DNA of 60,067 bases from a virus: positions 1 through 60,067 of the IMG/VR virus record IMGVR_UViG_3300021964_000066; one strand, written 5' to 3'. Positions 1,730 to 59,986 of the stretch are shown one piece after another (the stretch's first letter is position 1; the number at the start of each line of letters is the position of its first letter). The notes under the pieces are model-generated. The model was not told the DNA's origin. It saw only the letters and a program-made list of their open reading frames with translations, and did no database searches. The position numbers and the translations under genes are program-made.

Positions 1730-4700
1730 ATGGCGCAAGAAATCATTGACTTAGGTGAAGGCCCAGATAGCAACACTGGGGATTCACTTTATACAGCGTT
1801 TACAAAAACCAACAGTAACTTTACAGAGTTATACACAATTATTGGTAGCAACAGTACGACAAATTTAACTGGTAATACTATTACTGCAAATTATTTTTAC
1901 ACTACTGGCAATTTAAGAGTTGGTAATGTCAATGGTTTTGGAAATTTAAGCACTATTGGCAATATTATTGGGGCGGGATATTTTTATCCTAACGGTCAAA
2001 GTGTTTTTAGTAACATTCAAGCAGATCTTAGCAACATAGCGCAAAATGTTCTTCCTGTTACCTCGGCCACATACACATTAGGCAACGTTAACAAACAATG
2101 GCAGCAAGCTTACATTTCTTCTAATATAACATTAAATGGTGCTAATATTGCAATTTCTGATGGCGTACTAACAGTAAACGGTGCAGAAGTAAGTGGCAAT
2201 TATAGTAATAGTAATGTAGCATCCTATTTGCCTACTTATTCAGGCAATTTAGATAGTTTGGCTGGTAATGTAATTACTACTGCTAATGTTACTGCTGCTT
2301 ATTTTATTGGTAATGGTAGTCAACTCGAAGGACTGCCTGCTTCTTATTCAAACGCAAACGTAGCCAGTTATTTGCCAACGTATAGTGGTAACCTTGACAG
2401 TGTCGACGGTATAACTGCAAACAGTATTAGTGCAACAGAATTTATTGGCAACATTATCCCAAGCGCCAACGTTACTTACAATTTGGGAAGTTCAGATTTT
2501 AGATTTAAAGATTTATTCTTAAGTGGAAGTACTATTAACTTAGATGGTGCATCAATTAGTGCCAACAATACCGCAGTGATTATTACAACTGCTGAAGGTG
2601 GTACATTTGTTATTCAAGGATCTGAAGATGCAACAACATATAGAATTCAAAATGGCACTTCTAATGTTGACATTCCTGCTAGTGACGGAAATATTTTAAT
2701 TTCAGTTAACGGTGAATCGATAGCAACTTTTTCTTCCTTAGGTTTAGAAGTTGTTGGAAACATTACACCTGGTAATGTAGATACCGCAGGCAATGTTACA
2801 GCCAGTTATTTCTTTGGTAATGGTAGCCAATTAGACGGACTTACAGAATTAAGTGTAAACTTTGCAAACACTGCGGGTACTGCCGAGTTCGTAACCAATG
2901 CTACACAGGCAAACATTACCAGTGTTGGCACATTGACCAGTCTGACATTAAGTGGTACACTAACTGGCACTACAGTAGAAGCAGCACAAATTGGTAATAG
3001 TGGTGCTACATTAACAGGTACACTAGACACTGCAGCACAGACTAATATTACTTCAGTTGGCACACTGACTGGTTTGACACTAAGTGGTGCACTAAACGGT
3101 ACTACTCTACAAGCCGCTACAATTGGAAATGTAGGTGCTTCGATTATAGGTAATGGAAGCGCATTAACAAGTTTAACTGGGGCAAATGTTACAGGGACAG
3201 TAGCAAATGCAACATACGCGGACAGCGCAGATAGTGCTACAACCGCAACAAGTGCCGACACTGCTGAATTTGTAACTAACGCTACACAGAGTAACATTAC
3301 ATCAGTTGGCACACTAACAAGTCTGACATTAAGCGGCACGCTGACTGGTACAACTGTTGAAGCGGCACAAATAGGTAACAGCGGAGCAACACTAACCGGT
3401 ACACTAGATACTGCTGCTCAGACAAACATCACATCTGTCGGTACACTAACTGGGCTAACATTATCAGGAACATTGACAGGTACTACACTTGAAGCAGCAA
3501 CTATTGGTAATGCAGGTGCAAGTATAATTGGCGATGGAAGTCAATTAACCAGTTTAACTGGAGCAAATGTCACAGGTACTGTTGCAAACGCAACATACGC
3601 AGATAGCGCAGGCAGTGCTACAACCGCAACAACGGCAGATACTGCCGAGTTTGTAACTAATGCTGCTCAAGCAAACATTACCAGTGTTGGCACGTTAACT
3701 TCGTTAACATTATCAGGTACACTGACAGGTACAACTGTTGAAGCAGCACAAATAGGTAACTCAGGAGCCACATTAACTGGCACACTAGATACTGCTGCTC
3801 AAACAAATATTACCTCAGTTGGTACATTAACTGGATTAACATTAAGTGGTACATTAACGGGTACAACCATTAATGCTGCCAGCATTGGTAACGCAGGATC
3901 TACACTAACTGGTACGTTACAAACCGCCGCCCAAACAAATATTACCTCAGTAGGCACATTAACTGGATTAACACTGAGTGGTACACTAACAGGTACTACT
4001 GTCGAAGCAGCACAAATAGGTAATAGCGGTGCTACACTAACAGGTACGCTCGATACCGCGGCACAAACTAATATCACATCTGTTGGTACACTAACTGGAT
4101 TGACACTAAGTGGTGCATTAAACGGTACTTCACTTAATGCTGCAACCATTGGAAATAGCGGGTCGTTACTGACAGGCACCCTTACTACAGCAAGTCAACC
4201 AAACGTTACTTCACTAAGTGACAGCGTTACAATCGGTGAAATCACAATTGGTAGCAATGCTATTACTAGCACACATCATACTATTACATTAGAACCGGCT
4301 GATGCAGGTAGTACAGGTAATGTTGTTATTGAAGGTAATTTAAGAGTTACAGGAAATGTAACTTACATTGACAGTGAAACAATCACTACCAATGACAAAG
4401 ACATAATGATTGCTAACAATACCAGCAACATTGCAGATTTGAATGGTGCTGGTATACTTGTTGGTAATATTAGTGGTGCAGGAATTGTTACTTGGACATA
4501 CAGCACAACACAAGATGCTTGGATTAGTAATGTTGGAATTGCACCAGCAGCTAATGCTACGTTGGATTTTGGTGGTACAAGTAATTATTGGAACAATGCA
4601 TACGCAGCAAATGTTATTTCTGAGAGCCTAACAGGTACATTACAAACTGCTGCTCAAACTAACATCACATCTGTTGGTACACTAACTGGACTTACACTAA

Positions 4701-7700
4701 GTGGTAACTTGGATGGCACAAACATAAATGCAGCCAGTATTGGTAACACTGGCGCAACCATTACAGGTACACTACAAACTGCTGCTCAGACCAATATTAC
4801 AAGTTTAGGGACATTAACTGGTTTAACATTAAGTGGTACACTAACTGGTACCACAGTCGAAGCTTCTACCATTGGTAACACAGGTGCAACACTAACTGGC
4901 ACATTGAGTACCGCAGCACAAACAAACATTACATCAGTTGGTACACTGACTGGTTTAACACTAAGTGGTACACTAACAGGTACAACTGTTGAAGCAGCAC
5001 AAATAGGTAACTCAGGAGCAACACTAACTGGTACATTAGACACCGCTGCTCAAACAAACATAACAAGCGTAGGTACACTAACTGGTTTAACATTAAGTGG
5101 TACACTAAACGGAACAACTATACAAGCCGCCATAATCGGTAACTCAGGTGCCAGCATTATTGGAGATGGCAGTCAGTTAACCAGTTTGACGGGTGCAAAC
5201 GTAACTGGCACTGTAGCTAATGCTACATATGCAGATAATGCAGGCAGTGCTACGACAGCGGTAAGTGCTGACACTGCTGAGTTTGTAACTAACGCCACAC
5301 AGGCAAATATTACCAGCGTAGGCACATTAACCGGCTTAACTTTAAGTGGTAACTTAGATGGCACTAACATCAATGCGGCCAGCATTGGTAACTCAGGTGC
5401 AAGTATTACAGGTACAATACAAACAGCAGCACAAACAAATATTACTTCGGTTGGAACACTAACTGGACTTACACTGTCAGGAACACTAACTGGCACAACA
5501 GTAGAAGCAGCACAAATTGGTAATAGTGGTGCAACCCTAACTGGTACATTAGATACTGCTGCACAAACTAATATTACAAGTGTTGGTACATTAACCGGAC
5601 TAACTTTATCGGGTACACTAACCGGCACAACTGTTAACGCTGCTCAAATCGGAAATATTGATGCTGCAATAACAGCTGCAACAGTAAGTGCTGCCACAAT
5701 TGGTAATACAGGAACTACACTCACAGGTACATTAAGCACTGCGGCTCAGACAAACATTACATCAGTTGGTACTTTGGTAAGTTTAGGAGTTACTGGCAAC
5801 GTAGACGCTGGAAATCTTATTACAACTGGAACGGTAGAAGCAACTGGCAATATTTCTACTGACAACTACTTGTTAGGAAATGGTAGGTTTATTCAAGGAA
5901 TTACCGTCGCAGCTGGTAGTGCAATTGAAAATGGTACCAGTAATGTAGTTGTTGCTGCAAGTGGTAACATTACTGCTGCCGTTGCTGGCGTGACAGATGT
6001 TGTAACAATTGCTACCGACGGTGTATACACCGGCAATGTGTTTGTTGACAACACCATTACTGCAGCAACAGTAAATGCAGCTCAGATTGGTAATAGCGGT
6101 GCTACCTTAACAGGAACACTTGACACTGCTGCACAGACTAATATCACCTCAGTAGGTACATTAACTGGCTTAACTTTATCAGGTGCATTAAATGGTACTA
6201 CACTACAGGCAGCAACTATTGGTAATTCTGGCGCATCATTTATTGGTAATGGTAGCCAATTAACAAGCCTAACCGGTGCAAATGTTACAGGTACTGTAGC
6301 AAATTCTACATATGCAGATAATGCAGGTAGTGCTACAACAGCAATAACAGCAGATACCGCTGAGTTTGTAACTAACTCCACACAGAGCAACATTACTGCA
6401 GTTGGTACATTAACCAGCTTAACTCTGTCAGGTACATTAACAGGTACAACTATAGAAGCAGCACAGATTGGTAACAGCGGTGCTACACTGACAGGTACGC
6501 TGGATACCGCTGCCCAAACTAACATTACATCTGTTGGTACACTAACCGGTTTAACTCTTTCAGGAACTCTAAACGGAACAACCGTACAAGCAGCCACAAT
6601 TGGTAATGCTGGTGCAACTTTAATTGGTAGTACATTAGATACTACTGCAAACGCCACAGTAAATGGATTAACAGTTAATACCAGTACTACTATTTCTACA
6701 ACTTTAGATGTAACTGGTAACATTACAGGTGGAAACTTATCGGGAACTTTAATAGCAGGCACTTTGAGCACTGCTGCACAACCTAACATCACTTCACTTG
6801 GAATATTAACCGGACTTACACTGTCAGGCACGTTAACTGGTACTACTATAAACGCTGCCACAATTGGTAATACAGATGCTGCTATTGTTGGTGCTACAGT
6901 AAGTGCTGCAACTATTGGTAACACTGGTGCTGCTATCGTAGGTGCAACCGTTAGTGCAGCCACAATTGGTAACGCTGCTGCCGCGCTCGTCGGTGCAACT
7001 GTTAATACCAGTGCTAATGCAACAGTAAATGGATTAACAGTAAACAATAGTGCCACAATTGGTACTACATTAGGTGTTGCTGGTGTTACAACTATTACAG
7101 ATACTACGGATAGCACTGACACAGTAACAGGTGCACTGGTAGTATCGGGTGGCGTTGGCATTGCCAAACAACTGCGTGTAGGCAATAACGCTGTAATTAG
7201 CGGTAGTGCAACTATTGTAGGGGATTTGAACGTTAGTGGTAACGTAAACTATAGCGGTTCCAATAACTTGGTTATTAGCGACAACGTAATCGAATTACAC
7301 GTTGCCAACGTAGCCAACGTTGCTGAACCCTGGACATTTGATGATGGTAAAGACATTGGTCTGCGTTTCCACTACTATGAAGGTGCAGATAAGAGTGCTG
7401 CGTTTGTTTTCAGTCACGATGAACGTAATTTTGAATTTTACGATGATGGTGCACTGGGTGCAAACGTATTTACAGGCAACAGTTATGGCGGTTTAAAAGC
7501 AGGACAAGCTGTATTTGTTAACACTACACCGACAACAGGAAATGCAACTGGTGCACTGCAAGTTTATGGCGGCGCAAGTGTCAGCGGTAACCTATATGTG
7601 GTTGGCCAGTTTACTGTAGAAAATACTGTAACTTTTTCTAATACAATTTCAGGTACTACATTTGAAGCAGCACAAATTGGTAATACAGGTACAATATTAA

Positions 7701-10700
7701 CTGGAACAATAAGCACTGCTAGCCAGCCTAATATTACTAGCTTAGGAACACTAACTGGACTTACATTATCAGGTACACTAACAGGTACTACTCTTGAAGC
7801 AGCACAGATTGGAAATGCAGGAGCAACTATCACTGGTGCTACAGTTGAAGCTGCTACAATTGGTAATTCAGGTACAACACTGACAGGTACACTAAGCACT
7901 GCAAGTCAACCTAATGTTACTTCACTGGGTACACTGACAGGACTTACATTGTCAGGTACATTGACAGGAACAACTGTCGAAGCCAGTCAAATAGGTAATG
8001 TTGGTACTACCTTTACAGGTGCCAGTGTAAGTGCAGCCACAATTGGTAACTCAGGTGCAACCTTAACAGGAACTTTAAGTACTGCTAGTCAGCCAAATGT
8101 AACAAGTCTCGGAACACTAACCGGATTAACCCTAAGTGGCACACTAACAGGAACTACGTTAGAAGCAGCGCAGATTGGTAATAGCGGTGCTACATTAACA
8201 GGTACACTAGACACCGCAGCACAAACAAACATAACATCGGTTGGCACACTAACCGGATTGACATTAAGCGGTACACTAACAGGTACAACTGTTGAAGCAG
8301 CACAAATAGGTAACTCAGGAGCAACACTAACTGGTACACTTGACACTGCTGCTCAAACTAATATTACAAGTCTTGGTACACTGACTGGGCTAACACTAAG
8401 TGGCACATTAACGGGTACTACAGTTGAAGCCGCACAGATTGGTAATTCAGGAGCCACGTTAACTGGTACGCTTGACACTGCTTCACAAACAAATATTACT
8501 TCAGTAGGCACATTAACTGGGCTAACACTGAGTGGTACACTAACAGGCACAACGGTAGAAGCAGCACAGATTGGTAACAGCGGAGCAACTTTAACAGGTA
8601 CTTTAGATACTGCAGCTCAACCAAACATAACCAGTGTTGGAACTCTTGACAGTTTGACTGTTACAGGTAATGTTGCTGGCGGCAACTTAACAACTGCAGG
8701 AGACGTAACAACCGTTACAGTAACAGCATCGGGTAACATATCAGGTGCTAACCTTACTACTGCAGGCATAGTTGATGCAACTGGAAATGTTAGTTCTGGC
8801 AACTACTTACTTGGAAATGGTAGATTTATTCAAGGTATCACTGTTGAAGCAGGATCCTCTATTGCAAGTGGAACAAGCAACGTTGTTGTTGCCGAAGATG
8901 GCAATGTAACATTTGGAATCGGTGGAACCAACGATGTTGCTACTGTTACAACTACAGGAATTGAAACAGGAACATTATCACTTACTGGTACACTAACAGG
9001 CACAACAGTAGAAGCAGCACAGATAGGTAATAGTGGAGCAACTTTAACAGGCACGTTAGATACTGCAGCTCAGACAAATATCACATCAGTCGGTACATTA
9101 ACTGGACTAACACTAAGTGGTACACTAACAGGTACAACTGTAAATGCGGCTACTATTGGTAACTCAGGCGCTACAATTATTGGTAATGGAAGTCAGTTAA
9201 CCAGTTTAACAGGAGCAAACGTTACAGGTACAGTAGCCAATGCAACTTATGCTGATAGTGCAGGTAGCGCAGGAACTGCAACAAGCGCAGACACTGCTGA
9301 ATTTGTAACTAACGCTACACAGAGTAACATTACATCAGTTGGCACATTAACCAGTTTAACCGTTACAGGTAATGTCAGTGCAGGTAATGTTAGTGCTACT
9401 GGACTAGCAGGTACATTAAGTACTGCTGCACAAACTAATATTACTTCACTAGGCACATTAACTGGGTTGACACTTAGCGGCACATTGACAGGTACCACAA
9501 TAAACGCAGCCGCAATCGGCAATTCGGGTGCAACTCTAACTGGTACACTGCAGACAGCAGCACAAACAAATATAACTAGTGTTGGTACACTAACTGGATT
9601 AACACTTAGCGGCACATTGACAGGTACCACAATAAACGCAGCCGCAATCGGCAATTCGGGTGCAACTCTAACTGGTACACTGCAGACAGCAGCACAAACA
9701 AATATTACTTCGCTGGGTACACTCACTGGATTGACTCTGTCAGGCACGTTAAATGGAACTACGGTACAAGCAGCGACTATCGGAAATGCAGGCGCTGCGT
9801 TTATTGGTAATGGAAGTCAGTTAACCAGCTTAACAGGTGCAAACGTAACAGGCACAGTGGCTAATGCCACTTATGCTGATAGTGCAGGTAGTGCAGCCAG
9901 TGCTACTTCTGCTGACTCGGCAACTCTTGCTGAATATGTAACACAATCTGCACAAGCAAACATTACTAGTGTAGGTTCCAGTCTTACTACAGCCGAAATT
10001 ACAATTGGTAGTAATGCAATTACAAGTACTCACCATACAATTACTATTGAGCCTGCAGATGCTGGAAGTACAGGCAACGTGGTAATTGAAGGTAATCTGC
10101 GTGTTACTGGTAATGTAACTTATATAGACAGCGAAACAATTACAACCAATGACAAAGACATCATGGTTGCTAACAACCAAACTACAAGTTTGGGTATTGA
10201 TGGCGCTGGTATAATTGCAGGTAATGTCAGCAACGTAGGCATTGCTACATTCACTTACGACCACAGTACAACTAGTTGGCAACCCAACGTAGGAATCACA
10301 CCTGCTGCAAATGCTTCATTAGACCTTGGTGGTACCAGCAACTACTGGAATAATGGATATTTTGCTGCTATTACTGCACCGAGCATTACTGGTACACTAC
10401 AGACTGCTGCTCAAACTAATATTACCTCAGTAGGCACATTAACTGGATTGACCTTAAGTGGTACACTAACTGGTACAACCATAAATGCTGCTGCAATTGG
10501 TAACTCGGGTGCAACACTTACAGGTACGATACAGACTGCTGCTCAAACTAATATTACCTCAGTAGGCACATTAACTGGATTAACACTGAGTGGTACACTA
10601 ACTGGTACAACTATAAATGCTGCTGCAATTGGTAACTCAGGTGCAACACTTACAGGTACAATACAAACAGCAGCACAAACAAATATTACCTCAGTTGGAA

Positions 10701-11482
10701 CATTAACTGGATTGACACTAAGTGGTACACTAACAGGTACAACTGTTGAAGCAGCACAAATAGGAAACTCAGGAGCCACATTAACCGGTACACTAGATAC
10801 TGCCGCCCAAACAAATATTACCTCAGTTGGAACATTAACTGGACTAACATTGAGCGGTGCCCTACTTGGAACTACAGTAGGTACAAGCGGTAACGCCACA
10901 GTCAACGGGTTAACAGTAAATACCAGTGCCACAGTAGGCACAACATTGGGAGTTACAGGTAACGCCACAGTAGGCGGCATACTGACAGACAACTACTACT
11001 ATGCAAACGGTAGTCCATTTAGTCCTGGCGGCGGCGGCGGAACCACAACAGTTAGCAATACTGCACCAAGTTCACCAAGTCAAGGCGATATTTGGATTGA
11101 TAGTGACAGTGCTATACAGTACATTTACTTCAGTGACGGGGATAGCAGCCAGTGGGCTGAAATGCAAGCAGAATTATCATTCGGACAGAGCAGTTACTGG
11201 TTAGAAAAGACAGGCAACTACACAGCAGTTAGTGGCGATTGGTTAATTGTAAATACAGCAAGCAGCGCAATTACAATTACTTTACCTGCTAGTCCATCAT
11301 TGGGTGATACAGTCAAGATTGTAGACGGCTCTGGTAATGCTGCAACAAATAATATCACTGTTGACAGAAACACTAATAATATAAACGGCACTGCTGCAAA
11401 TCTAACTATTGACATCGATAGAGCATCTGTTGAAGTTGTTTACTATGATACAACCAATGGATGGATTCTAATAGGAACATAA
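1730..11482 (+). CDS. Giant repetitive tail-fibre-type virion protein (3250 aa)
   Basis: This is by far the largest gene. A non-repetitive head (MAQEIIDLGEGPDSNTGDSL, residues 1 to about 390) is followed by roughly 30 copies of a unit of about 44 residues, with phrases such as TNITSVGTLTGLTLSG, TLTGTTVEAAQIGNSG and ATLTGTLDTAAQ. Interspersed are non-repeat blocks, two of them duplicated at equal length. The C-terminus has a PSQGDIWIDSD...YIYF...W domain and a beta-rich end typical of trimeric fibre or knob regions. No catalytic motif is visible. The regular Thr/Gly/Ser/Asn-rich repeat suggests a long beta-helical fibre on the tail or baseplate, probably involved in host contact. It sits at the head of a run of surface genes, and the same repeat recurs in the gene at 12994. 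Function is inferred from composition and position. Confidence 0.8.
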   Translation: MAQEIIDLGEGPDSNTGDSLYTAFTKTNSNFTELYTIIGSNSTTNLTGNTITANYFYTTGNLRVGNVNGFGNLSTIGNIIGAGYFYPNGQSVFSNIQADLSNIAQNVLPVTSATYTLGNVNKQWQQAYISSNITLNGANIAISDGVLTVNGAEVSGNYSNSNVASYLPTYSGNLDSLAGNVITTANVTAAYFIGNGSQLEGLPASYSNANVASYLPTYSGNLDSVDGITANSISATEFIGNIIPSANVTYNLGSSDFRFKDLFLSGSTINLDGASISANNTAVIITTAEGGTFVIQGSEDATTYRIQNGTSNVDIPASDGNILISVNGESIATFSSLGLEVVGNITPGNVDTAGNVTASYFFGNGSQLDGLTELSVNFANTAGTAEFVTNATQANITSVGTLTSLTLSGTLTGTTVEAAQIGNSGATLTGTLDTAAQTNITSVGTLTGLTLSGALNGTTLQAATIGNVGASIIGNGSALTSLTGANVTGTVANATYADSADSATTATSADTAEFVTNATQSNITSVGTLTSLTLSGTLTGTTVEAAQIGNSGATLTGTLDTAAQTNITSVGTLTGLTLSGTLTGTTLEAATIGNAGASIIGDGSQLTSLTGANVTGTVANATYADSAGSATTATTADTAEFVTNAAQANITSVGTLTSLTLSGTLTGTTVEAAQIGNSGATLTGTLDTAAQTNITSVGTLTGLTLSGTLTGTTINAASIGNAGSTLTGTLQTAAQTNITSVGTLTGLTLSGTLTGTTVEAAQIGNSGATLTGTLDTAAQTNITSVGTLTGLTLSGALNGTSLNAATIGNSGSLLTGTLTTASQPNVTSLSDSVTIGEITIGSNAITSTHHTITLEPADAGSTGNVVIEGNLRVTGNVTYIDSETITTNDKDIMIANNTSNIADLNGAGILVGNISGAGIVTWTYSTTQDAWISNVGIAPAANATLDFGGTSNYWNNAYAANVISESLTGTLQTAAQTNITSVGTLTGLTLSGNLDGTNINAASIGNTGATITGTLQTAAQTNITSLGTLTGLTLSGTLTGTTVEASTIGNTGATLTGTLSTAAQTNITSVGTLTGLTLSGTLTGTTVEAAQIGNSGATLTGTLDTAAQTNITSVGTLTGLTLSGTLNGTTIQAAIIGNSGASIIGDGSQLTSLTGANVTGTVANATYADNAGSATTAVSADTAEFVTNATQANITSVGTLTGLTLSGNLDGTNINAASIGNSGASITGTIQTAAQTNITSVGTLTGLTLSGTLTGTTVEAAQIGNSGATLTGTLDTAAQTNITSVGTLTGLTLSGTLTGTTVNAAQIGNIDAAITAATVSAATIGNTGTTLTGTLSTAAQTNITSVGTLVSLGVTGNVDAGNLITTGTVEATGNISTDNYLLGNGRFIQGITVAAGSAIENGTSNVVVAASGNITAAVAGVTDVVTIATDGVYTGNVFVDNTITAATVNAAQIGNSGATLTGTLDTAAQTNITSVGTLTGLTLSGALNGTTLQAATIGNSGASFIGNGSQLTSLTGANVTGTVANSTYADNAGSATTAITADTAEFVTNSTQSNITAVGTLTSLTLSGTLTGTTIEAAQIGNSGATLTGTLDTAAQTNITSVGTLTGLTLSGTLNGTTVQAATIGNAGATLIGSTLDTTANATVNGLTVNTSTTISTTLDVTGNITGGNLSGTLIAGTLSTAAQPNITSLGILTGLTLSGTLTGTTINAATIGNTDAAIVGATVSAATIGNTGAAIVGATVSAATIGNAAAALVGATVNTSANATVNGLTVNNSATIGTTLGVAGVTTITDTTDSTDTVTGALVVSGGVGIAKQLRVGNNAVISGSATIVGDLNVSGNVNYSGSNNLVISDNVIELHVANVANVAEPWTFDDGKDIGLRFHYYEGADKSAAFVFSHDERNFEFYDDGALGANVFTGNSYGGLKAGQAVFVNTTPTTGNATGALQVYGGASVSGNLYVVGQFTVENTVTFSNTISGTTFEAAQIGNTGTILTGTISTASQPNITSLGTLTGLTLSGTLTGTTLEAAQIGNAGATITGATVEAATIGNSGTTLTGTLSTASQPNVTSLGTLTGLTLSGTLTGTTVEASQIGNVGTTFTGASVSAATIGNSGATLTGTLSTASQPNVTSLGTLTGLTLSGTLTGTTLEAAQIGNSGATLTGTLDTAAQTNITSVGTLTGLTLSGTLTGTTVEAAQIGNSGATLTGTLDTAAQTNITSLGTLTGLTLSGTLTGTTVEAAQIGNSGATLTGTLDTASQTNITSVGTLTGLTLSGTLTGTTVEAAQIGNSGATLTGTLDTAAQPNITSVGTLDSLTVTGNVAGGNLTTAGDVTTVTVTASGNISGANLTTAGIVDATGNVSSGNYLLGNGRFIQGITVEAGSSIASGTSNVVVAEDGNVTFGIGGTNDVATVTTTGIETGTLSLTGTLTGTTVEAAQIGNSGATLTGTLDTAAQTNITSVGTLTGLTLSGTLTGTTVNAATIGNSGATIIGNGSQLTSLTGANVTGTVANATYADSAGSAGTATSADTAEFVTNATQSNITSVGTLTSLTVTGNVSAGNVSATGLAGTLSTAAQTNITSLGTLTGLTLSGTLTGTTINAAAIGNSGATLTGTLQTAAQTNITSVGTLTGLTLSGTLTGTTINAAAIGNSGATLTGTLQTAAQTNITSLGTLTGLTLSGTLNGTTVQAATIGNAGAAFIGNGSQLTSLTGANVTGTVANATYADSAGSAASATSADSATLAEYVTQSAQANITSVGSSLTTAEITIGSNAITSTHHTITIEPADAGSTGNVVIEGNLRVTGNVTYIDSETITTNDKDIMVANNQTTSLGIDGAGIIAGNVSNVGIATFTYDHSTTSWQPNVGITPAANASLDLGGTSNYWNNGYFAAITAPSITGTLQTAAQTNITSVGTLTGLTLSGTLTGTTINAAAIGNSGATLTGTIQTAAQTNITSVGTLTGLTLSGTLTGTTINAAAIGNSGATLTGTIQTAAQTNITSVGTLTGLTLSGTLTGTTVEAAQIGNSGATLTGTLDTAAQTNITSVGTLTGLTLSGALLGTTVGTSGNATVNGLTVNTSATVGTTLGVTGNATVGGILTDNYYYANGSPFSPGGGGGTTTVSNTAPSSPSQGDIWIDSDSAIQYIYFSDGDSSQWAEMQAELSFGQSSYWLEKTGNYTAVSGDWLIVNTASSAITITLPASPSLGDTVKIVDGSGNAATNNITVDRNTNNINGTAANLTIDIDRASVEVVYYDTTNGWILIGT
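4238..4603 (+). repeat. 366-bp duplicated fibre block, copy 1
   Basis: It encodes EITIGSNAITSTHHTI through TSNYWNNAY (122 codons). A second copy of exactly equal length lies at 9995-10360, diverged in the DNA but with most residues kept. Confidence 0.8.
5840..6034 (+). repeat. 195-bp duplicated fibre block, copy 1
   Basis: It encodes ATGNISTDNYLLGNGRFIQG and the following NGTSNVVVA segment. An equal-length partner lies at 8777-8971. Confidence 0.75.
8777..8971 (+). repeat. 195-bp duplicated fibre block, copy 2
   Basis: It encodes ATGNVSSGNYLLGNGRFIQG and the following GTSNVVVA segment. Equal-length partner of 5840-6034. Confidence 0.75.
9470..9705 (+). repeat. Recent tandem duplication: two identical 104-bp stretches, 132 bp apart
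   Basis: Positions 9470-9573 and 9602-9705 are identical, including synonymous positions, with an offset of exactly one 44-codon unit. This marks a very recent unit duplication inside the fibre array. Confidence 0.85.
9995..10360 (+). repeat. 366-bp duplicated fibre block, copy 2
   Basis: Partner of 4238-4603, with the same 122-codon length. The most variable segment follows TTNDKDIM, where the two copies read ANNTSNIADL and ANNQTTSLGI. Confidence 0.8.
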
Positions 11483-49291: not shown

Positions 49292-49588
49292 ATGAAAAGT
49301 CTAATTGCTATTCTAAGTTTAACACTAAGTGGTACAGCACTAGCCGATCAGGCACTAGCACAGAAAAATATGTGTTTGGCCTGCCACGCTGTTGACACCA
49401 AGTTGGTAGGACCCTCTTACAAGGATGTTGCCGCAAAATATCGAGACCAAAAAGACAGTGTTTCATATCTTGTCAACAAAATCAAAAACGGCGGCTCGGG
49501 TGTTTGGGGTGTGATTCCCATGCCGGCACAGCCACAGCTCAGTGACAAAGACGCTGAAACTTTAGCTAAGTGGATTTTGCAAAAGTAA
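49292..49588 (+). CDS. Periplasmic cytochrome c (class I, c551/c552-like)
   Basis: This 98-residue protein has a Sec signal peptide (MKSLIAILSLTLSGTALA, cleavage after residue 18), a haem motif CLACH at 28-32 and an axial Met at 77 in GVWGVIPMPAQ. The phrases AVDTKLVGPSYKDVAAKY and DAETLAKWILQK match Pseudomonas c551 / betaproteobacterial c552. It would carry electrons in the host periplasm between a dehydrogenase or bc1 complex and a terminal oxidase or reductase, after haem attachment by the host. All functional residues are intact. It lies between tRNA-Ala and a sigma70 promoter, 15 nt after the tRNA, with AAGGAAC as ribosome site. Confidence 0.93.
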   Translation: MKSLIAILSLTLSGTALADQALAQKNMCLACHAVDTKLVGPSYKDVAAKYRDQKDSVSYLVNKIKNGGSGVWGVIPMPAQPQLSDKDAETLAKWILQK

Positions 49589-51490: not shown

Positions 51491-52594
51491 ATGAGAATTA
51501 TCGAAGAAGTAAAGTTGGATTTCAAAGATGTACTCTTTGTGCCAAAACGCAGTACCTTGACTAGCAGGCGTGAAGTTGATTTAACCAGGCATTTTCGATT
51601 TAAACACAGTGGCTATGAATATACGGGTATACCTATCATGGCTTCAAACATGGATGGTGTTGGCACATTTAAAATGGCCCAGGCGTTAACAGAACACCAA
51701 TTGTTTACCTGTATAGTAAAAACTAAAGGTTTTGCCGACTGGGTTGAAAATTGGAAAAACTTAACAGAGAATACTGTGGCAGTAAGCACGGGTATTACAG
51801 AAGCAGACAGTCAACGATTAGACACGATTTTAAAACACTGTCCTGACATACAGTTTATCTGTATCGATGTTGCTAATGGCTATCACGAACACTTTGGTGA
51901 TTTTGTTGAACAGGTCAGACTTAAATATCCCGCAAAAACTATCATTGCTGGTAACGTAGTTACTGCAGACATGACGCAAGAACTTATCATGAGAGGAGCA
52001 GACATTGTCAAAGTTGGAATCGGCCCAGGATCGGTATGCACGACTAGGTTTCAAACTGGGGTTGGCTACCCGCAACTTAGTGCGATTATTGAGTGCAGTG
52101 ATGCGGCTCATGGGCTCAATGCCCATATTATTGCTGATGGCGGTTGCACTAGCCCAGGCGATGTGGCTAAGGCATTTGGCGCCGGCGCCGACTTTGTCAT
52201 GCTTGGGGGTATGTTAGCAGGACATACCGAAGGCGGCGGCGAAGTTATTACAAAATATTATAATCCACAAAATGAATATTTCCTTGAAAACAAGGAACGT
52301 GGGGATTATGCTCCGGTAATAAAAATGCAAAAGACCAGTCAGTTTTACGGTATGAGTTCAGACACTGCTATGAACAAACACAGTGGCGGTGTTGCTAACT
52401 ATCGTAGCAGTGAAGGTAAAACAGTAACCATGCCCTACAAAGGTGATGTTGAGCATACAGTGTTAGACATATTGGGCGGCTTACGTAGCACCTGCACTTA
52501 CGTTGGTGCTATAAACTTAAAAAATCTCAGTAAGTGTACTACTTTTGTGAGAGTTACGCAACAGACTAACGACATTTATGGAAAACCACGATGA
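51491..52594 (+). CDS. guaC: GMP reductase
   Basis: This 367-residue IMPDH/GMPR-family barrel has the catalytic loop at 174-186 ([13 protein letters not shown], Cys 183), the [17 protein letters not shown] segment that marks GuaC, and phosphate-binding [20 protein letters not shown]. There is no CBS domain, which favours GuaC over GuaB. It converts GMP with NADPH to IMP, NADP and ammonia (E. coli GuaC is 347 residues). In infection it would move guanylate toward adenylate, suitable for an AT-rich phage. It overlaps nadE by 4 nt. Confidence 0.92.
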
Positions 52595-53568
52595 GTTTCA
52601 AAGAAGAAATTTTAAAATACAGTAGGCAAGATCAAATTGCCCCGCTTAGTGATTGGTTCGACAATGCACTAAGAGAACTAATTGATTTTGATGTTTATCC
52701 CTACGAAGATAAACTCAGTGAAATTGGTAAAATTCTAATTAAAAATCTAGTAGAATACCGACAAAAGTATAACATTGAAAATGTTGTAATAGGTATGAGT
52801 GGTGGCGTAGACAGCGCACTTACCGCAGCCTTGTTTAAACAGGCAGGTTGGCAAGTACACGGTTATACACTACCAATTCATCAAAAGACTGAAGAAACTC
52901 TCCGAGGTCGGCGTGCTTGTGAAGCATTAGGTATTAATCATACGGAAATTGATTTGACTGCTACTTACGATGGCATGATAGCATGGTTCATGCAACACGA
53001 CGATACGCTAGTAGGCCAAGGCACTGAACCTTTACGCAAAGGTAATTTACGTGTGAGACTGCGTATGATGACCTTGTATAACCAAGCTAGTAAACACCGA
53101 GGTCTAGTAGCCAGCACAGACAACTACAGTGAACTGGCTGCAGGATTTTGGACACTGCACGGTGATGTAGGTGACGTCAGTCCTATTCAAAGTCTTAACA
53201 AAAGTTGGGAAGTACCTAAACTGGCAGAACTGATGGCTGTACCTCAAGAAACAGTGTTTGCTGTGCCTACAGATGGATTAGGTATTAGCAATAGTGACGA
53301 AGACCAATTCGGGTTTAGTTATTTGGAGTTTGACATTGTTCTACATCGCGTTGGACAGACCACTATTACTTCTTCCAACCGGCAGGAAATTTTAGAATCA
53401 TTAGCAGTGCCCGACACCGATTTAGAAAAAGTAAATCGTATCTTAGATAGAATTCAGAGCAGTACATTTAAACGAGCAAATCCTTATAACTTACTGCACC
53501 CCGCACAACCTACTAGATTCCAACAACTGGAAACCATAGACACAGCATTGTGGAATACAGTAAAATAA
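52591..53568 (+). CDS. nadE: Ammonia-dependent NAD synthetase
   Basis: This 325-residue protein has the ATP-pyrophosphatase loop SGGVDSA at 70-76, [40 protein letters not shown] and [13 protein letters not shown], all characteristic of NadE. The reaction is deamido-NAD + ATP + NH3 to NAD. No glutaminase domain is present, so it relies on free ammonia. It is translationally coupled to guaC, which releases ammonia. It could counter NAD depletion by host defences or supply redox demand. Confidence 0.92.
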
Positions 53569-53589: not shown

Positions 53590-54024
53590 ATGATTTACGA
53601 AATTAAAGACGAAAAAGATCCTTATAGTCGTTACGTTCTTGAAGATCCTGTCAGAGCGCACATACCTATGGCGGAACGCTTTGGTCCAAATCGTCATGTG
53701 TTTGCCTTATTAGAAAACGACACAATCAGTGCTGTGGTCTGTAGTAAACTCTGTTGTGGTGTACCTACCAGTGAACAGTCTTTATTGTCTAACAATTGCG
53801 CTAATTCAAACACTATAGTGTTTTACACTATTTGGAGTTATCGGCCAGGAGCAGGACAAAAACTAATCGCAGAAGGTCTAAAATTAGCAAAATCAAAATT
53901 CAGTAATGTAGATCAATTTGTTACACTAAGCCCGCCTACAGAAATGGCTCGTCGTTTTCATTTAAAAAATGGCGCCACTGTCTACCGTGTAAATGAAGAC
54001 ACAGTCAACTATGAGTACAAATAA
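53590..54024 (+). CDS. GNAT-like acetyltransferase
   Basis: This 144-residue protein has IVFYTIWSYRPGAGQKLIAE, where R-P-G-A-G-Q is the acetyl-CoA pyrophosphate-binding motif A (R/Q-x-x-G-x-G/A), then FVTLSPPTEMARRFHLKNGA, the C-terminal GNAT pattern. The substrate is unknown; in a sugar cassette an amino sugar acceptor is plausible, but the neighbouring genes do not prove it. Its stop overlaps the next start (TAATG). Confidence 0.6.
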   Translation: MIYEIKDEKDPYSRYVLEDPVRAHIPMAERFGPNRHVFALLENDTISAVVCSKLCCGVPTSEQSLLSNNCANSNTIVFYTIWSYRPGAGQKLIAEGLKLAKSKFSNVDQFVTLSPPTEMARRFHLKNGATVYRVNEDTVNYEYK

Positions 54025-54779
54025 TGGTACATGTCAAAAACTATGTAATCTGCGCTCATCGCAGAATTAAAAGCACAAAATGGGTCTGGAAAGACACTAA
54101 AGACGAAGGCGATATCTACGAAATCTACAGTGAAATGTGTCGCAACAGTCTTGCCAGTATGCGTAAGTTTTTAGAAGGTGACTGGGAGTACATATTGTTT
54201 GATGAGGAAATAGAATCTATCAATGATGCTATGCCTTTAAACAATGACAGAACTTACGAACTTTATCATAGTGGACCCTGTAATGTTCTATGGGTAGGAC
54301 CTGATGTACAGTTTGTAAAACCCACACGCATTTTTGGTGAATTCAAAGAGTTTAGATTGTTTAACTGGACTGATCCCAAAAGTTGGCATGAACCCAATCA
54401 GTATAACAAAAGTTTTGACAACTTGTTTAACAATGATTTACAGTATTTTCCCGCGGGCATGGATCCTGAATTATGGCGTGTGGAACGTGAGATGCGAGCA
54501 GCGTGGGATAACACAGACGGCATGAGCAGTTATAACAATCAGCAGATTATTCATAACACCATGTTTTGGAGTCAAGGATTGACATGGGAGGATGCACACA
54601 GACCCCAACTGTTTTATCAAGCACAATGGTTGCCGTGGCACGAGGTTGCCATGCAGGATGAATGGAACGGTTGCAGATATGAAGATGCACAGGTCATACA
54701 CTGGCATAGCAGCCGCCACAGTCCTACAAAATTAGAATGCATGCGACAGGTAAATGCAGCACTAGGAGTTGAAGTCTAG
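54024..54779 (+). CDS. Probable glycosyltransferase-like protein
   Basis: This 251-residue protein has CNVLWVGPDVQFVKPTRIF, which may be a GT-A acidic metal site (D-x-x, here GPDVQ), and DAQVIHWHSSRHSPTKLECM near the end (a His-rich acceptor-side motif). Its middle is aromatic and Asn/Asp-rich. The family is not one I can name with certainty. Its place ahead of an SDR and a 4,6-dehydratase supports a role in transferring a sugar made by this cassette. Confidence 0.45.
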   Translation: MVHVKNYVICAHRRIKSTKWVWKDTKDEGDIYEIYSEMCRNSLASMRKFLEGDWEYILFDEEIESINDAMPLNNDRTYELYHSGPCNVLWVGPDVQFVKPTRIFGEFKEFRLFNWTDPKSWHEPNQYNKSFDNLFNNDLQYFPAGMDPELWRVEREMRAAWDNTDGMSSYNNQQIIHNTMFWSQGLTWEDAHRPQLFYQAQWLPWHEVAMQDEWNGCRYEDAQVIHWHSSRHSPTKLECMRQVNAALGVEV

Positions 54780-55579
54780 TGCGTATTGGCATTGTTGGTG
54801 CAAACGGTTTTATTGGCAGATACCTTGCTCGACGTTACACTGACAGAGGGCATGACGTTGACTCAGTAACAAGACAGAGTTTTACTATTGAAAACTATAC
54901 CGCAGTTGACACTTGGTTGGCACACAGAACTCCAGACGTTGTTATTAATTGTGCAGTAGTGGGTGGCGGTCCGTTGGTCACACAGGTAAATGATCAAACT
55001 GTGCGTACAAATCTCTCAGTATTTCAAAATTTTTATAACAGCGCCAACGTCAGGCGATACATTAATATAGGATCTGGTGCGGAATTTGACAAAAAACATG
55101 ATTTAGTAAACCAACATGAAGATTCTATCTTTCATAGTGTTCCAGAAGACAGTTACGGATATAGTAAAAATGTAATTGCAAGAATGGCGAGACAACGAGA
55201 AGAATTTTATACCCTAAGACTGTTTGGATGTTTTCATAATACCGAATCTAGTCAACGTATATTAAAAAAAATTATGAACAACACCAGTGAAGATTGGTTA
55301 ATAGAGGACAAATATTTTGATATGTTTGGCTTAGAAGATTTTGCTCGTGTAGTTGACTATTATTTGGCTGCAGGATCTGTCAAAGACATTAATTGTGTAT
55401 ACCAAAACAAAACAAAATTGTTTGATACGGTCAAAGCATTTGCAGATTATCACAGCGTAGATGCAACTGTTACACTAGGACCCAAAGGTCTGAGTTATTC
55501 AGGCAATGGAGATCAGTTGGCAGATTTAGATTTAGACTTGCTGGGCCTACAGTCCAGTATAGAAAGATACAATGACTAA
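54779..55579 (+). CDS. Extended SDR / NAD-dependent epimerase-reductase
   Basis: This 266-residue protein has a GTG start overlapping the previous TAG. GxxGxxG is at the N-terminus (IGIVGANGFIGRYLARRY), then TPDVVINCAVVGGG and the catalytic Y-x3-K of EDSYGYSKNVIARMARQ. This is an extended short-chain dehydrogenase of the sugar epimerase/reductase kind. By position it could be the final ketoreductase of a deoxysugar pathway. It overlaps the 4,6-dehydratase gene by 8 nt. Confidence 0.8.
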   Translation: MRIGIVGANGFIGRYLARRYTDRGHDVDSVTRQSFTIENYTAVDTWLAHRTPDVVINCAVVGGGPLVTQVNDQTVRTNLSVFQNFYNSANVRRYINIGSGAEFDKKHDLVNQHEDSIFHSVPEDSYGYSKNVIARMARQREEFYTLRLFGCFHNTESSQRILKKIMNNTSEDWLIEDKYFDMFGLEDFARVVDYYLAAGSVKDINCVYQNKTKLFDTVKAFADYHSVDATVTLGPKGLSYSGNGDQLADLDLDLLGLQSSIERYND

Positions 55580-56513
55580 AAAAATTGTTTATGTCACTGG
55601 CTGTTTGGGTTTTATAGGTTATCATGTAACCCGTGCTTGTTTAGAGCAAGGATGGTATGTCAGAGGTGTCGACAAAGGCACTTATGCTGCAAACTGGAAC
55701 CTACTTCCGGAACTCGAAAAATACAAAACATTTACTTTTGAGCATAAAGACATTAACGACATAGAAAGAATCTACGATTGCGATTATTTTATTAACACAG
55801 CCGCAGAAACACATGTAGACAACAGTATTGAAAGTTCGGATGAATTTGTGCACAGCAACATAGATGGTGTGCATCATTTGCTAAAACTAATAAATCAAAA
55901 GAAATATCGTAAGCCTGTGTTTTTACATTTTAGCACCGATGAAGTATATGGTGATATTGAACAGGGCAGTCACACTGAACAGGATTTACTAAGACCCAGT
56001 AATCCTTACAGTGCCACTAAAGCAGCCGCAGACATGTTGGTACTTGCTTGGGGCAGAACGTATAATCTGCCATATGTAATTGTGCGGCCAACCAACAACT
56101 ACGGTATTGGGCAGTATGTAGAAAAACTTATTCCCAAGACCTGTAAATTTTTAACTGTGGGTAAAAAGGTAGACTTACATAACAACGGAACTCCTGTGCG
56201 TACTTGGTTGCATGCCGAAGATACTGCTCGAGCCGTAATCACCATTATTAATGCCGGCGTTGAAAATGAAATCTACAACATAAGTGGACCGTATCAAACT
56301 GAAAATATAAATGTAGTAACCAAAATACTAAAGTTACACAACCTCAGAGGTTCAGTAGACGATTACATCGAACACATGGAACGAATTGGGCAGGACGTTA
56401 GATATAGTATCGATGACACAAAATTGAAAAAACTGGGTTGGCAACCAAGGGCAGAGTTTGACAAAGAGTTGGCAAAGATAGTAAAATACTACAAGAACAA
56501 TTTTATTTGGTAA
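55572..56513 (+). CDS. Nucleotide-sugar 4,6-dehydratase
   Basis: This 313-residue protein has G-x-x-G-x-x-G at 10-16 (TGCLGFIGYHV), FSTDEVYGDI (121-127, catalytic Asp-Glu) and NPYSATKAAADMLVLAW (Tyr146, Lys150), then RPTNNYGIGQYVEKLIPKTC and GTPVRTWLHAEDTARAV. These define the dTDP/CDP-glucose 4,6-dehydratase family (RmlB/DdhB). The product would be a 4-keto-6-deoxy sugar nucleotide. With the RfbH-type gene next, CDP-glucose is a likely substrate, but dTDP is not excluded. Confidence 0.88.
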   Translation: MTKKIVYVTGCLGFIGYHVTRACLEQGWYVRGVDKGTYAANWNLLPELEKYKTFTFEHKDINDIERIYDCDYFINTAAETHVDNSIESSDEFVHSNIDGVHHLLKLINQKKYRKPVFLHFSTDEVYGDIEQGSHTEQDLLRPSNPYSATKAAADMLVLAWGRTYNLPYVIVRPTNNYGIGQYVEKLIPKTCKFLTVGKKVDLHNNGTPVRTWLHAEDTARAVITIINAGVENEIYNISGPYQTENINVVTKILKLHNLRGSVDDYIEHMERIGQDVRYSIDDTKLKKLGWQPRAEFDKELAKIVKYYKNNFIW

Positions 56514-56514
56514 T

Positions 56515-57834
56515 ATGAAACACATTCTAAAACAGGTTCGTGAATACGTCGAACAAAAACAATCAAATCGGTCTTGGCAAGCAGGTAAAGACTTTGTTAA
56601 CTACGCAGGCGCACACTATGATGCAGAAGAATATGTGGCAGGTGTTGAAAGTTTACTTACGGGCTGGTTGGCAATGGGTAATGCTGGCTTGGAGTTCGAA
56701 CGCAGATTTCCCAGTCAGTTCGGCAAAAAACTAGGTATTGTGACTAACAGTGGATCTAGCAGTAACTTGCTGATGATGGCTTCACTGACCAGCAAACGTG
56801 GTTACAACTTACCCAAAGGCACTAAAGTATTGATGCCTATCGCAGGTTTTCCCACTACACTAAACCCTACACTACAAGTAGGATTCATACCTCAGTTTGT
56901 GGACATTGAATTAGACACGCTGAACATTGATTTGGATCAGGTAGAACGTGCACTAGCCAACGATCCAGACATTCGTGTGATTACTTTTGCACACGTATTA
57001 GGCAATCCACCCAACATGGATAGGTTAATGGATCTTGTTCGCAAGCACGATTTAATCTTATTAGAAGACTGTTGCGATGCATTGGGCAGTACATGGAACG
57101 GTCAACCTCTTGGTAGTTTCGGTTTGATGGCTTCGTGTAGTTTTTATCCTGCACACCATATGACCATGGGCGAAGGCGGCTTTGTAGCAACCAGTGATGC
57201 TAACCAAGAAGTTATCTTACGCAGTTTCCGTGAATGGGGTCGTGGCTGTTACTGTGTAGGACCAGAGGCAAATAAATTAAAATGCGGTACTTGTGGTAAA
57301 CGATTCAGTGAATGGATTCCTGCTATGCCAGGAGAAATATTTGACCACAAGTATGTGTATGATGAAATTGGTTACAACCTAAAACCAATTGAACTGCAAT
57401 GTGCTATGGGACTAAGACAGTTGGATAAACTGCCTGAGATACACCAACTACGTAGACGCAACTATAAATTGTTATTAGACATTTACAAAAAGCACGAAGA
57501 ATTTTTTATCTTACCCTATGCACAACCAGGTTCGGATCCATCGTGGTTTGCTTTTCCCTTAACAATAAGGCAGGGCGCACCATTTAGTCGTAGTGATATA
57601 GTGGACTATTTGGAAGAAAACCTTATACAGACACGCCCGTACTTTGCAGGCAACATAATGCTACAGCCTGCGTACAGCCATTTGATGGATCCGAACGTGG
57701 CTCGCAACATGATGCCCAATGCCACACACGCCATGACACACACTTACTTTCATGGCACCAGCCCTGTAATTACAGAACAGCAAATTCAGTACATTGGAGA
57801 AATTGTAGACGGTTTCTTAAGTTTGTTTAAGTAA
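56515..57834 (+). CDS. RfbH/DdhC-type 3-dehydrase (E1, 3-deoxygenation)
   Basis: This 439-residue PLP/PMP enzyme has NSGSSSNLLMMASL (phosphate site), ILLEDCCDALGSTWNGQPLG (Asp for pyridine N) and SFYPAHHMTMGEGG, where His214 replaces the usual Schiff-base Lys, the hallmark of E1. Cys at 245, 247, 257 and 260 (WGRGCYCVG, LKCGTCGKRF) fit the [2Fe-2S] site. E1 removes the 3-OH of CDP-4-keto-6-deoxyglucose with an E3 reductase, leading to 3,6-dideoxyhexoses of O-antigens. No E3 (DdhD) is in the window, so a host reductase may be needed. It starts 1 nt after the dehydratase. Confidence 0.92.
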   Translation: MKHILKQVREYVEQKQSNRSWQAGKDFVNYAGAHYDAEEYVAGVESLLTGWLAMGNAGLEFERRFPSQFGKKLGIVTNSGSSSNLLMMASLTSKRGYNLPKGTKVLMPIAGFPTTLNPTLQVGFIPQFVDIELDTLNIDLDQVERALANDPDIRVITFAHVLGNPPNMDRLMDLVRKHDLILLEDCCDALGSTWNGQPLGSFGLMASCSFYPAHHMTMGEGGFVATSDANQEVILRSFREWGRGCYCVGPEANKLKCGTCGKRFSEWIPAMPGEIFDHKYVYDEIGYNLKPIELQCAMGLRQLDKLPEIHQLRRRNYKLLLDIYKKHEEFFILPYAQPGSDPSWFAFPLTIRQGAPFSRSDIVDYLEENLIQTRPYFAGNIMLQPAYSHLMDPNVARNMMPNATHAMTHTYFHGTSPVITEQQIQYIGEIVDGFLSLFK

Positions 57835-57838
57835 TATT

Positions 57839-58846
57839 ATGAGAGTATGTGATTGGATCCCCGAATACTTGCGTTCACAAGGGGTAGAACGTGTACATGG
57901 TTTAATGGGCGGCGGCGCCAGCGGACTAAATGATGGTTTTATCAAAGCAGGCATGCCCTACATTTGCTATCATCATGAACAAGGTGCAGGCCACGCTGCT
58001 ATTGGTGAAAGTAAATTAACAGGCAGAATCAGCGTAGTTAACCCTACCACAGGTTGTGCTGGTACTAACTGCGCTACCAGTGTACTAAATGCTTGGCAAG
58101 ACAGTGTTCCTGTAATCTTTATTAGCGGCAACGTCAGGCTTGATGCTTGTAGCGGATATATCAACGAGCAACGTGGTATACAATTACGCAAGTATGGCGT
58201 GCAAGAACATCACATTGTGGACACGTATGTTACAATGACCAAGTGGAGTGTTTTTATTACAGATGTTAGAGATGTTGCTTATACACTGGAACGTGCAATG
58301 TGGTTAGCACAAGAAGGCAGACCTGGTCCTGTTTGGATTGACATCCCCAGCGATATACAGAACGCACCAATGCCCGAAGATGTTAAACATTTCGAACCCC
58401 CTGCCAGCGCCAAACTGCCTGTAGACTTTGAGTTTGTTAAAAAATCTATAGAAATGAGTGAGCGTCCACTTATACTTGCAGGCTACGGTATCAGGCAAAG
58501 CCAAACAGTTGACTTGTTCAATGACTTTATTGAACGATATGAAATACCATTTGCCAGCACTTATGGTGCAAGGGACTATACTCCTGGTAATCATCATTAC
58601 AGTATGGGCACTGTGGGAATTAAAGGCAGTCGTGCAGGCAACTTTGCTGTACAGAATTGTGATTTATTGTTAATTTTGGGTTGTAGTTTGGGATCCAGTG
58701 TTGTGGGTTATGATCCTAAACAATTCAGTCCTTATAGTTATAAAATAATGGTGGACATAGACAACAACGAACTTAACAAAGACATTGTAAATATTGATGC
58801 AAAATATCTCTGTGGACTAAAAAAGTTTTTTGGAGCAATGCTATGA
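57839..58846 (+). CDS. ThDP enzyme, PYR and central domains (split acetolactate-synthase-like)
   Basis: This 335-residue protein has GLMGGGASGLNDGFIKAG then CYHHEQGAGHAAIGESKLTG, with Glu47 as the conserved glutamate that activates thiamine diphosphate. PVIFISGNVRLDACSGYINE and WLAQEGRPGPVWIDIPSDIQ complete the PYR domain, and residues about 200-330 match the central domain (RPLILAGYGIRQSQ...CDLLLILGCSLGSS). The chain ends where the PP domain would start; that domain is the next gene. ThDP sugar enzymes such as YerE add a two-carbon unit from pyruvate to a 4-keto-3,6-dideoxy sugar, fitting this cassette. Confidence 0.85.
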   Translation: MRVCDWIPEYLRSQGVERVHGLMGGGASGLNDGFIKAGMPYICYHHEQGAGHAAIGESKLTGRISVVNPTTGCAGTNCATSVLNAWQDSVPVIFISGNVRLDACSGYINEQRGIQLRKYGVQEHHIVDTYVTMTKWSVFITDVRDVAYTLERAMWLAQEGRPGPVWIDIPSDIQNAPMPEDVKHFEPPASAKLPVDFEFVKKSIEMSERPLILAGYGIRQSQTVDLFNDFIERYEIPFASTYGARDYTPGNHHYSMGTVGIKGSRAGNFAVQNCDLLLILGCSLGSSVVGYDPKQFSPYSYKIMVDIDNNELNKDIVNIDAKYLCGLKKFFGAML

Positions 58847-59589
58847 CAAAAACAGAATGGTTAGCCAAATGCCTACACTGGAAAACTAAATGGCCTGTCA
58901 TGCAGCCTGAATACCGTGCTGACAACGAAACAAACTCTTTAAACATCTATGCAGTGTTAGATTGGATTAATCAACACAGTGATCCAAAACAAGTTCTAGT
59001 AGGCGATGCTGGCAGTATCAGTTATGCTGGACCCACTGCACTTGAAGCCAAACCAGGCCAACGACTGGTATTCAGTCCTGCACAGGCCGACATGGGTTGG
59101 GCAGTACCCGGTGCTATTGGTGTTGAAATAAACAATGGCGGAAGAGGTACTATCTGTATTACCGGCGATGGCAGTTTTATGAGTAACCTGCAGGAACTTG
59201 CAGTGATTACGGAACACCGTCTTAACGTTCAGATTGTTATCTTGAACAACGGCGGCTACCTCAGCATTAAAAACACACAAAGCAAATACTATGAAGGTCG
59301 TGTATTTGGAACTAGTGCTGGTAAAGGTCTATGGTTTCCTGACTTTGGTAAAATAGCAGACTCATTTGGTTTTGACTATTATCAATTAAAGACCAAAGAC
59401 GATTTAGATCAGTTTGCATTTCGAATGAGCAAGACAGGTGGACCGATTATATGGGATTGTGTTTGCCATATGGATCAAGAAATACTGCCTGCACAAGGAC
59501 TTAAAAACGGCAAACAGGCTGGTCTACATGACTTGGTACCTTTCTTAAGTGATGAAGAACTTCGATCGGAATTGCTGGTAGATTTGTAA
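58843..59589 (+). CDS. ThDP enzyme, PP domain (second half of the split enzyme)
   Basis: This 248-residue protein has GDAGSISYAGPTALEAKPGQ, then TICITGDGSFMSNLQELAVI and IVILNNGGYLSIKNTQ: the GDG...NN motif that binds Mg and the ThDP diphosphate. It begins within the last codons of the PYR gene (ATGA), so both halves should be made in equal amounts and form a heteromeric active site. About 40 extra residues precede the PP domain. The split falls exactly at the domain border, and both halves keep all cofactor residues, so this is a working fission rather than a broken gene. Confidence 0.85.
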   Translation: MTKTEWLAKCLHWKTKWPVMQPEYRADNETNSLNIYAVLDWINQHSDPKQVLVGDAGSISYAGPTALEAKPGQRLVFSPAQADMGWAVPGAIGVEINNGGRGTICITGDGSFMSNLQELAVITEHRLNVQIVILNNGGYLSIKNTQSKYYEGRVFGTSAGKGLWFPDFGKIADSFGFDYYQLKTKDDLDQFAFRMSKTGGPIIWDCVCHMDQEILPAQGLKNGKQAGLHDLVPFLSDEELRSELLVDL

Positions 59590-59593
59590 ATAC
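59586..59593 (+). promoter_or_regulatory. Late-promoter-like core overlapping a stop codon (GTAAATAC)
   Basis: TAAATA shares the TAA of the PP-domain gene, 4 nt before the next ATG; doubtful as a promoter for that ATG. Confidence 0.3.
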
Positions 59594-59596
59594 TGT

Positions 59597-59986
59597 ATGA
59601 ACTATACAGATCCTTTTGTTAAAGTTGCATATGACTTAGTAATAGAAGGAGAAGAACTGGCAAATACAGTACTACCCAATTCTGTAGAAGAATATGTTGT
59701 ACTGATGTTTGCCAAAAACTTCCAACGTACAGACATCGGTGCTAATCCAGTAGCCATTCAAATGTTGGAAGCCTGTCAACATCGAGGCACCGAACACTAT
59801 CAACCGATAGCAGACGAGTGTTTACTGATTCACAGTTACCCATTAAATCGTAGACGTTGGCCCACAGAAACTTACTATTTAGAAATGGGTGTTACTGCCT
59901 ACGGGCTAGCCAATATTGAAATAATGGAATCAAACTTTGAACCTGCCAGTCGTGTGCTACGCAGAGTGTTCAAAAATTTTGGTTAA
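59597..59986 (+). CDS. Unknown helical protein (129 aa)
   Basis: MNYTDPFVKVAYDLVIEGEE continues with AKNFQRTDIGANPVAIQMLE and RRWPTETYYLEMGVTAYGLA, predominantly helical. No family is recognised. It is 7 nt behind the split ThDP gene and so likely belongs to the same operon. Confidence 0.6.
   Translation: MNYTDPFVKVAYDLVIEGEELANTVLPNSVEEYVVLMFAKNFQRTDIGANPVAIQMLEACQHRGTEHYQPIADECLLIHSYPLNRRRWPTETYYLEMGVTAYGLANIEIMESNFEPASRVLRRVFKNFG

Follow-up and report, generated by a model that had tools for sequence, protein, structure and literature searches.

What would a bacteriophage build with a sugar 3-dehydratase of the RfbH/DdhC type (E1) encoded immediately next to a ThDP-dependent enzyme? The initial annotation read this locus as a possible pathway for a branched 3,6-dideoxy sugar of the yersiniose type, and that general reading is well supported by E1, the YerE-like ThDP enzyme and the short-chain reductase SDR1, whereas CDP-yersiniose itself is an unlikely product because the accompanying 4,6-dehydratase appears to belong to the RmlB class and not to the CDP class. 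The DNA analyzed here, the window, corresponds to an entire IMG/VR virus record (60,067 bases), which is itself a fragment of a larger genome. Its terminase shares 57.5-57.7% identity with the terminases of PA5oct-like jumbo Pseudomonas phages, and this match, along with the tail sheath and tail tube genes and 15 tRNA genes, points to a large myovirus, so that the window, judged by its gene complement, is a piece of a jumbo myovirus genome; the terminase and tail genes also rule out a non-phage contig. Away from the operon, the window encodes a 3250-aa open reading frame without a clear family (1730-11482), a pfkB-type sugar kinase on the opposite, minus strand (266-1084), and, among the tRNA genes, a small c-type cytochrome (Pfam PF00034) with a signal-like N-terminus (49292-49588).

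Near the right end of the window, eight genes form a tight plus-strand operon (53590-59986), in the order given in Table 1. The successive intergenic gaps are -1, -1, -8, 1, 4, -4 and 7 bp, which bears out the earlier description of a single, tightly spaced operon containing all the genes noted; the interval that had been singled out, 56515-59589, covers exactly E1 and the two ThDP genes, but the dehydratase and the SDR lie just upstream of it. Directly upstream of the operon (51491-53568), there is an IMPDH/GMP-reductase-like gene followed by an NAD synthetase, and many relatives likewise have a NadE-like gene close to the cassette. What was observed directly comprises the gene content, the family membership, the motifs, the conservation and the phylogenetic placement.

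Table 1. Genes of the operon, with predicted products and the basis of each assignment
Coordinates	Strand	Predicted product	Basis
53590..54024	+	Acetyltransferase-like protein, 144 aa; possible sugar acylation	Weak Pfam match
54024..54779	+	Glycosyltransferase (GT)-like protein, 251 aa, GT-A fold	AlphaFold2 model fold matches
54779..55579	+	SDR1, NAD(P)-dependent sugar ketoreductase, candidate YerF-like branch reductase	Pfam Epimerase, fold, context
55572..56513	+	NDP-glucose 4,6-dehydratase, RmlB (dTDP-glucose) type	TIGR01181 score, STDEVYG motif
56515..57834	+	RfbH/DdhC (E1)-type PMP/[2Fe-2S] 3-dehydratase	NF011936, Yersinia E1, His214 and four Cys
57839..58846	+	ThDP alpha: PYR and central domains, YerE-like carboligase	Pfam TPP_enzyme_N and M
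58843..59589	+	ThDP beta: PP domain, ThDP-binding GDG...NN motif	Pfam TPP_enzyme_C
59597..59986	+	Small conserved protein, 129 aa, no assigned family	Conservation in relatives

This operon probably specifies the synthesis of an NDP-linked 3,6-dideoxyhexose that is branched at C4, the carrier probably being dTDP. In the scheme that we infer, which extends to the nucleotide carrier, the donor acid, the order of the steps, the product and its destination, the RmlB-type dehydratase would first turn NDP-glucose, most likely host dTDP-glucose, into a 4-keto-6-deoxy sugar, and E1 would then strip the C3 hydroxyl via PMP and its [2Fe-2S] cluster, with electrons supplied by ferredoxin or flavodoxin reductases of the host. 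The two-gene YerE-like enzyme would decarboxylate pyruvate or a longer 2-oxo acid, the acyl carbanion would add to the C4 ketone to yield a tertiary alcohol with an acyl branch, and the ketone of this branch would be reduced by SDR1 in the role ascribed to YerF. Transfer and decoration of the finished sugar would fall to the GT-like and acetyltransferase-like proteins, the most likely target being a surface polysaccharide of the host. The CDP-yersiniose A pathway of Yersinia pseudotuberculosis comprises DdhB, DdhC/DdhD, YerE and YerF, and the phage cluster similarly brings together a 4,6-dehydratase, an RfbH/DdhC-type 3-dehydratase, a YerE-like ThDP carboligase and an SDR reductase; it differs in that the dehydratase is of the RmlB type, no DdhD was found, the ThDP enzyme is encoded by two genes, and the whole is carried by a phage.

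The cassette is widespread in environmental phages. E1 is present in all 62 related viral ThDP loci, the RmlB-type dehydratase in 54 and a class I aminotransferase in 34; with near-duplicates removed and the window included, the respective counts are 29/29, 25/29 and 19/29. Compared with the relative L002, alpha and E1 of the window show dN of about 0.025 and dS of about 0.67-0.72 (dN/dS about 0.04), that is, both are under strong purifying selection and hence are being kept functional, and this selection, together with the invariable co-occurrence, argues that the association of E1 with the ThDP genes is not due to chance. In L002 and its near-copies (E1 and alpha 96% identical), an FkbM-type methyltransferase gene (L002:9338-9997) lies between E1 and alpha, where the window has 4 bp. 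Among the isolated phages in the collection, there is no close relative of the ThDP pair: all ThDP matches fall below 36% identity, and many come from short or contaminated records and look like acetolactate synthases of bacteria. In cells, single-chain YerE-like genes adjoin RfbH and a true CDP-glucose dehydratase. Three contigs assigned to Maricaulis and to Thaumarchaeota MAGs (L144, L145 and L146) carry SDR1-E1-RmlB cassettes in which E1 shares 51-54% identity with its phage counterpart, and are probably phage DNA binned with cells.

The aminotransferase of the relatives, typically located between E1 and alpha (for example, L010:4097-5263 and L033:8835-10004), could make the 2-oxo acid donor. 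It is therefore conceivable, if doubtful, that the ThDP enzyme adds a longer, functionalized 2-oxo acid in the manner of ErwE, which favors hydroxylated donors longer than C4 (PMC12247030), so that the branch would exceed the two carbons of yersiniose. However, the aminotransferase gene is absent from the operon of the window.

As first described, the 3-dehydratase is an RfbH/DdhC-type E1 with the His-for-Lys replacement and the cluster cysteines: it scores 444.1 bits against the RfbH equivalog model NF011936, above the cut-off of 423, and its best PDB match is the Yersinia E1, aligned over nearly the full length. His214 of the phage protein aligns with the catalytic His of E1, at a position where entry 3bb8 has Lys, and is kept in 141/141 aligned rows; Cys245, Cys247, Cys257 and Cys260, the putative ligands of the [2Fe-2S] cluster, are kept in 131-137 of the 141, with a spacing in the phage protein slightly unlike that of the Yersinia enzyme. 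The phage E1 can be regarded as a full member of the RfbH equivalog, and since the His-for-Lys change is the mark of a 3-dehydratase in the E1 family (PMC8987622), a 3-dehydratase role is predicted for it.

The preceding step departs from the Yersinia scheme. The initial annotation had drawn a parallel with the CDP-yersiniose route of Yersinia, and a 4,6-dehydratase is indeed present, but it scores 299.6 bits against the dTDP model (TIGR01181, the RmlB equivalog) versus 69.3 bits against the CDP-glucose 4,6-dehydratase model, for which the cut-off is 278. The dehydratases of the phage relatives score 292-302 bits on the RmlB model, and the STDEVYG motif, with the Asp-Glu catalytic pair within TDEVYG, is found in 119 of the 121 phage copies, whereas cellular CDP-glucose dehydratases have TSDKCYEN or near variants at this site. 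The phage dehydratase thus looks to be of the RmlB (dTDP-glucose) type, with a score below the equivalog cut-off of 365.1, so that the choice of nucleotide is read from its class with less than certainty. The known members of the RfbH equivalog act on CDP sugars (PMC8987622), and a dTDP-type dehydratase feeding an E1 that most resembles CDP-sugar enzymes would be unusual. This kinship of E1, along with the missed dTDP cut-off, speaks for a variant in which the same pathway starts from CDP-glucose, as in Yersinia, the RmlB-like dehydratase having switched its substrate; the gulf between the dTDP and CDP scores and the STDEVYG motif nevertheless make such a switch unlikely.

Some functions would have to come from the host. 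In 12 cassette phage records, possibly incomplete, there was no match to Fer2 (the E3 reductase), and a search for phage nucleotidyltransferases, likewise in possibly incomplete records, yielded only two marginal partial matches, none convincing for glucose-1-phosphate; therefore, the host probably supplies both functions, the phage relying on host dTDP-glucose and host reductases. For the reductases, there is a precedent in SpnQ of the spinosyn pathway, an E1-like PMP/[2Fe-2S] enzyme that works on dTDP sugars with general reductases (PMC8987622); SpnQ, likened here to the phage E1 by description, differs in acting on a 2,6-dideoxy sugar.

The remaining proteins of the operon bear on the last steps and on the destination of the sugar. 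SDR1 has a Pfam Epimerase match, and its predicted model (pLDDT 96.2) is closest in fold to GDP-fucose synthase and RmlD. With three phage-like contigs set aside, its four best homologs in cellular E1 or ThDP loci all have a YerE-like gene in the same locus, and the Clostridium locus has such an SDR immediately ahead of that gene; the keto-sugar reductase fold and this context make SDR1 the natural candidate for YerF. The GT-like protein, a member of a family present in 85 loci, has no Pfam match, but its AlphaFold2 model (pLDDT 89.9) matches glycogenin, GT6 and ABO transferases at a TM of about 0.5. The acetyltransferase-like protein matches weakly (E 5.6e-6) the GNAT-like C-terminal domain of malonyl-CoA decarboxylase in Pfam, and its family occurs in 24 related loci, where it adjoins the GT gene. 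The 129-aa protein, for which family searches gave no match, belongs to a family found in 28 related loci. A phage with its own GT-like gene of the GT-A fold might also place the sugar on its own particle, on virion proteins or DNA, instead of host polysaccharide, and a capsid glycosyltransferase of PBCV-1 is among the many fold matches of the GT-like model. This match is, however, weak and generic (TM about 0.5), and the sugars that YerE is known to make belong to the LPS of bacteria (PMC12247030), so that decoration of the virion seems rather improbable.

The branching step hinges on the class of the ThDP pair. Alpha comprises the Pfam domains TPP_enzyme_N and M (PYR and central) and beta comprises TPP_enzyme_C (PP); the catalytic Glu47 of alpha is invariant among the aligned relatives, as are the GDG and NN of the ThDP-binding motif of beta. 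In single-sequence searches, each half finds JanthE (8rph), from Janthinobacterium sp. HH01, as its top match among solved structures. In profile searches, beta again finds JanthE (1.5e-47 vs 3.5e-26 for AHAS I), and for alpha, the solved structures rank as 5ahk, JanthE and AHAS I. We take 5ahk to be PpYerE; a search of the open-access literature found no paper naming this PDB entry. JanthE and PpYerE are solved YerE-like, ketone-accepting enzymes (PMC12188165, PMC12247030), and within the decarboxylase superfamily, no other subclass than the YerE-like enzymes is known to use isolated ketones (PMC12247030). Two quick trees with long branches, in which the PYR half alone stood for PpYerE, unite the phage proteins with JanthE, PpYerE and RfbH-linked cellular proteins in a single group that is separate from the Escherichia coli references IlvB, IlvI and Gcl (SH-aLRT 97 and 99). 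The grouping with catabolic enzymes that the initial annotation had named as fatal to its reading thus did not occur when tested with AHAS and Gcl references, and the IolD profile gives beta only 59 bits (cut-off 715). By placement and motifs, the pair belongs with the YerE-like carboligases and is predicted to accept ketones. Glyoxylate carboligase can be rejected since Gcl falls outside the YerE-like group. JanthE, YpYerE, PpYerE and ErwE share the PYR-central-PP domain set of the phage pair, although JanthE is a single chain with a CDG motif (PMC12247030), whereas the phage enzyme consists of two chains with the usual GDG. This domain set is that of the decarboxylase superfamily, and hence, the pair would not be a two-subunit branching enzyme of the alpha-KADH2 class: KbDH-alpha/beta and other such enzymes also add an acetyl branch to keto sugars with two subunits (PMC12247030), but represent another ThDP superfamily. 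An unbranched sugar, with the ThDP pair serving a separate metabolic task, for instance as an acetolactate synthase for branched-chain amino acids during infection, is very improbable: the best-scoring NCBIfam models for both halves are acetolactate synthases, but at 177.5 and 95.4 bits, the halves fall far under the TIGR00118 cut-off of 538, the nearest solved structures are YerE-like, the trees set the pair apart from IlvB and IlvI, and E1 accompanies it at every related locus.

The enzyme described at the outset as ThDP carboligase-like accordingly stands as YerE-like but, to judge from its layout, is one enzyme fissioned into two genes. The start of beta lies inside the stop region of alpha, with a 4-bp overlap, and the same overlap recurs in 64 of 75 alpha/beta pairs in viral loci, near-copies included, which rules out a frameshift or sequencing error as the source of the split. 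In other phages, the enzyme is encoded as a single chain (35 full-length genes), and one set of these (L107, L108 and L139) groups with the split clade with support of 100, suggesting that the fission probably happened inside phages; a single origin of the split is less certain, with tree support of 73 and 44. The cellular relatives beside RfbH in the inspected loci mostly consist of one chain, about 550-620 residues long, and the 21 strong beta matches obtained from 299 cellular genomes of one phylum all lie in open frames of at least 600 residues. When the alpha alignment was used to scan cellular genomes, by two strict peptide patterns only, no relative was confirmed, and the cellular relatives were instead found with the E1 alignment. 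So far, among the loci inspected, the split form is found only in phages.

The initial annotation knew of no description of such a pathway for a phage. In our search of the open-access literature, neither a branched-sugar pathway of phages nor the split enzyme was found described, but the components have already been listed as viral AMGs: ddhC/rfbH figures in a list of AMGs from marine viruses (PMC10653327), and ilvB, rfbG and related genes are tabulated for a Chlorobium virus (PMC8226683). The cyanophages S-H68 and RN05-S likewise have operons with an RfbH-type E1 and an RmlB-like dehydratase; their E1 is, however, 39% identical to that of the window, and no ThDP gene is annotated in the stretches read.

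If the proposed route is correct, phages carry, beyond single LPS genes, most of a pathway to a rarer class of bacterial sugars, and own a two-gene form of an enzyme class that is prized for the production of chiral tertiary alcohols. Several dozen diverse enzymes of the YerE-like kind would thereby become available for study as well. More speculatively, and only as a tentative possibility, this would amount to a phage-specific sugar biochemistry in which a fission-born, two-subunit YerE-type carboligase acts on dTDP-4-keto-3,6-dideoxyglucose and, in those relatives that have the aminotransferase, uses a longer 2-oxo acid made by it, to produce sugars unseen in bacteria that rewrite the host surface. 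The purpose of such a system might be to alter the surface sugars of the host, for example, so as to exclude competing phages.
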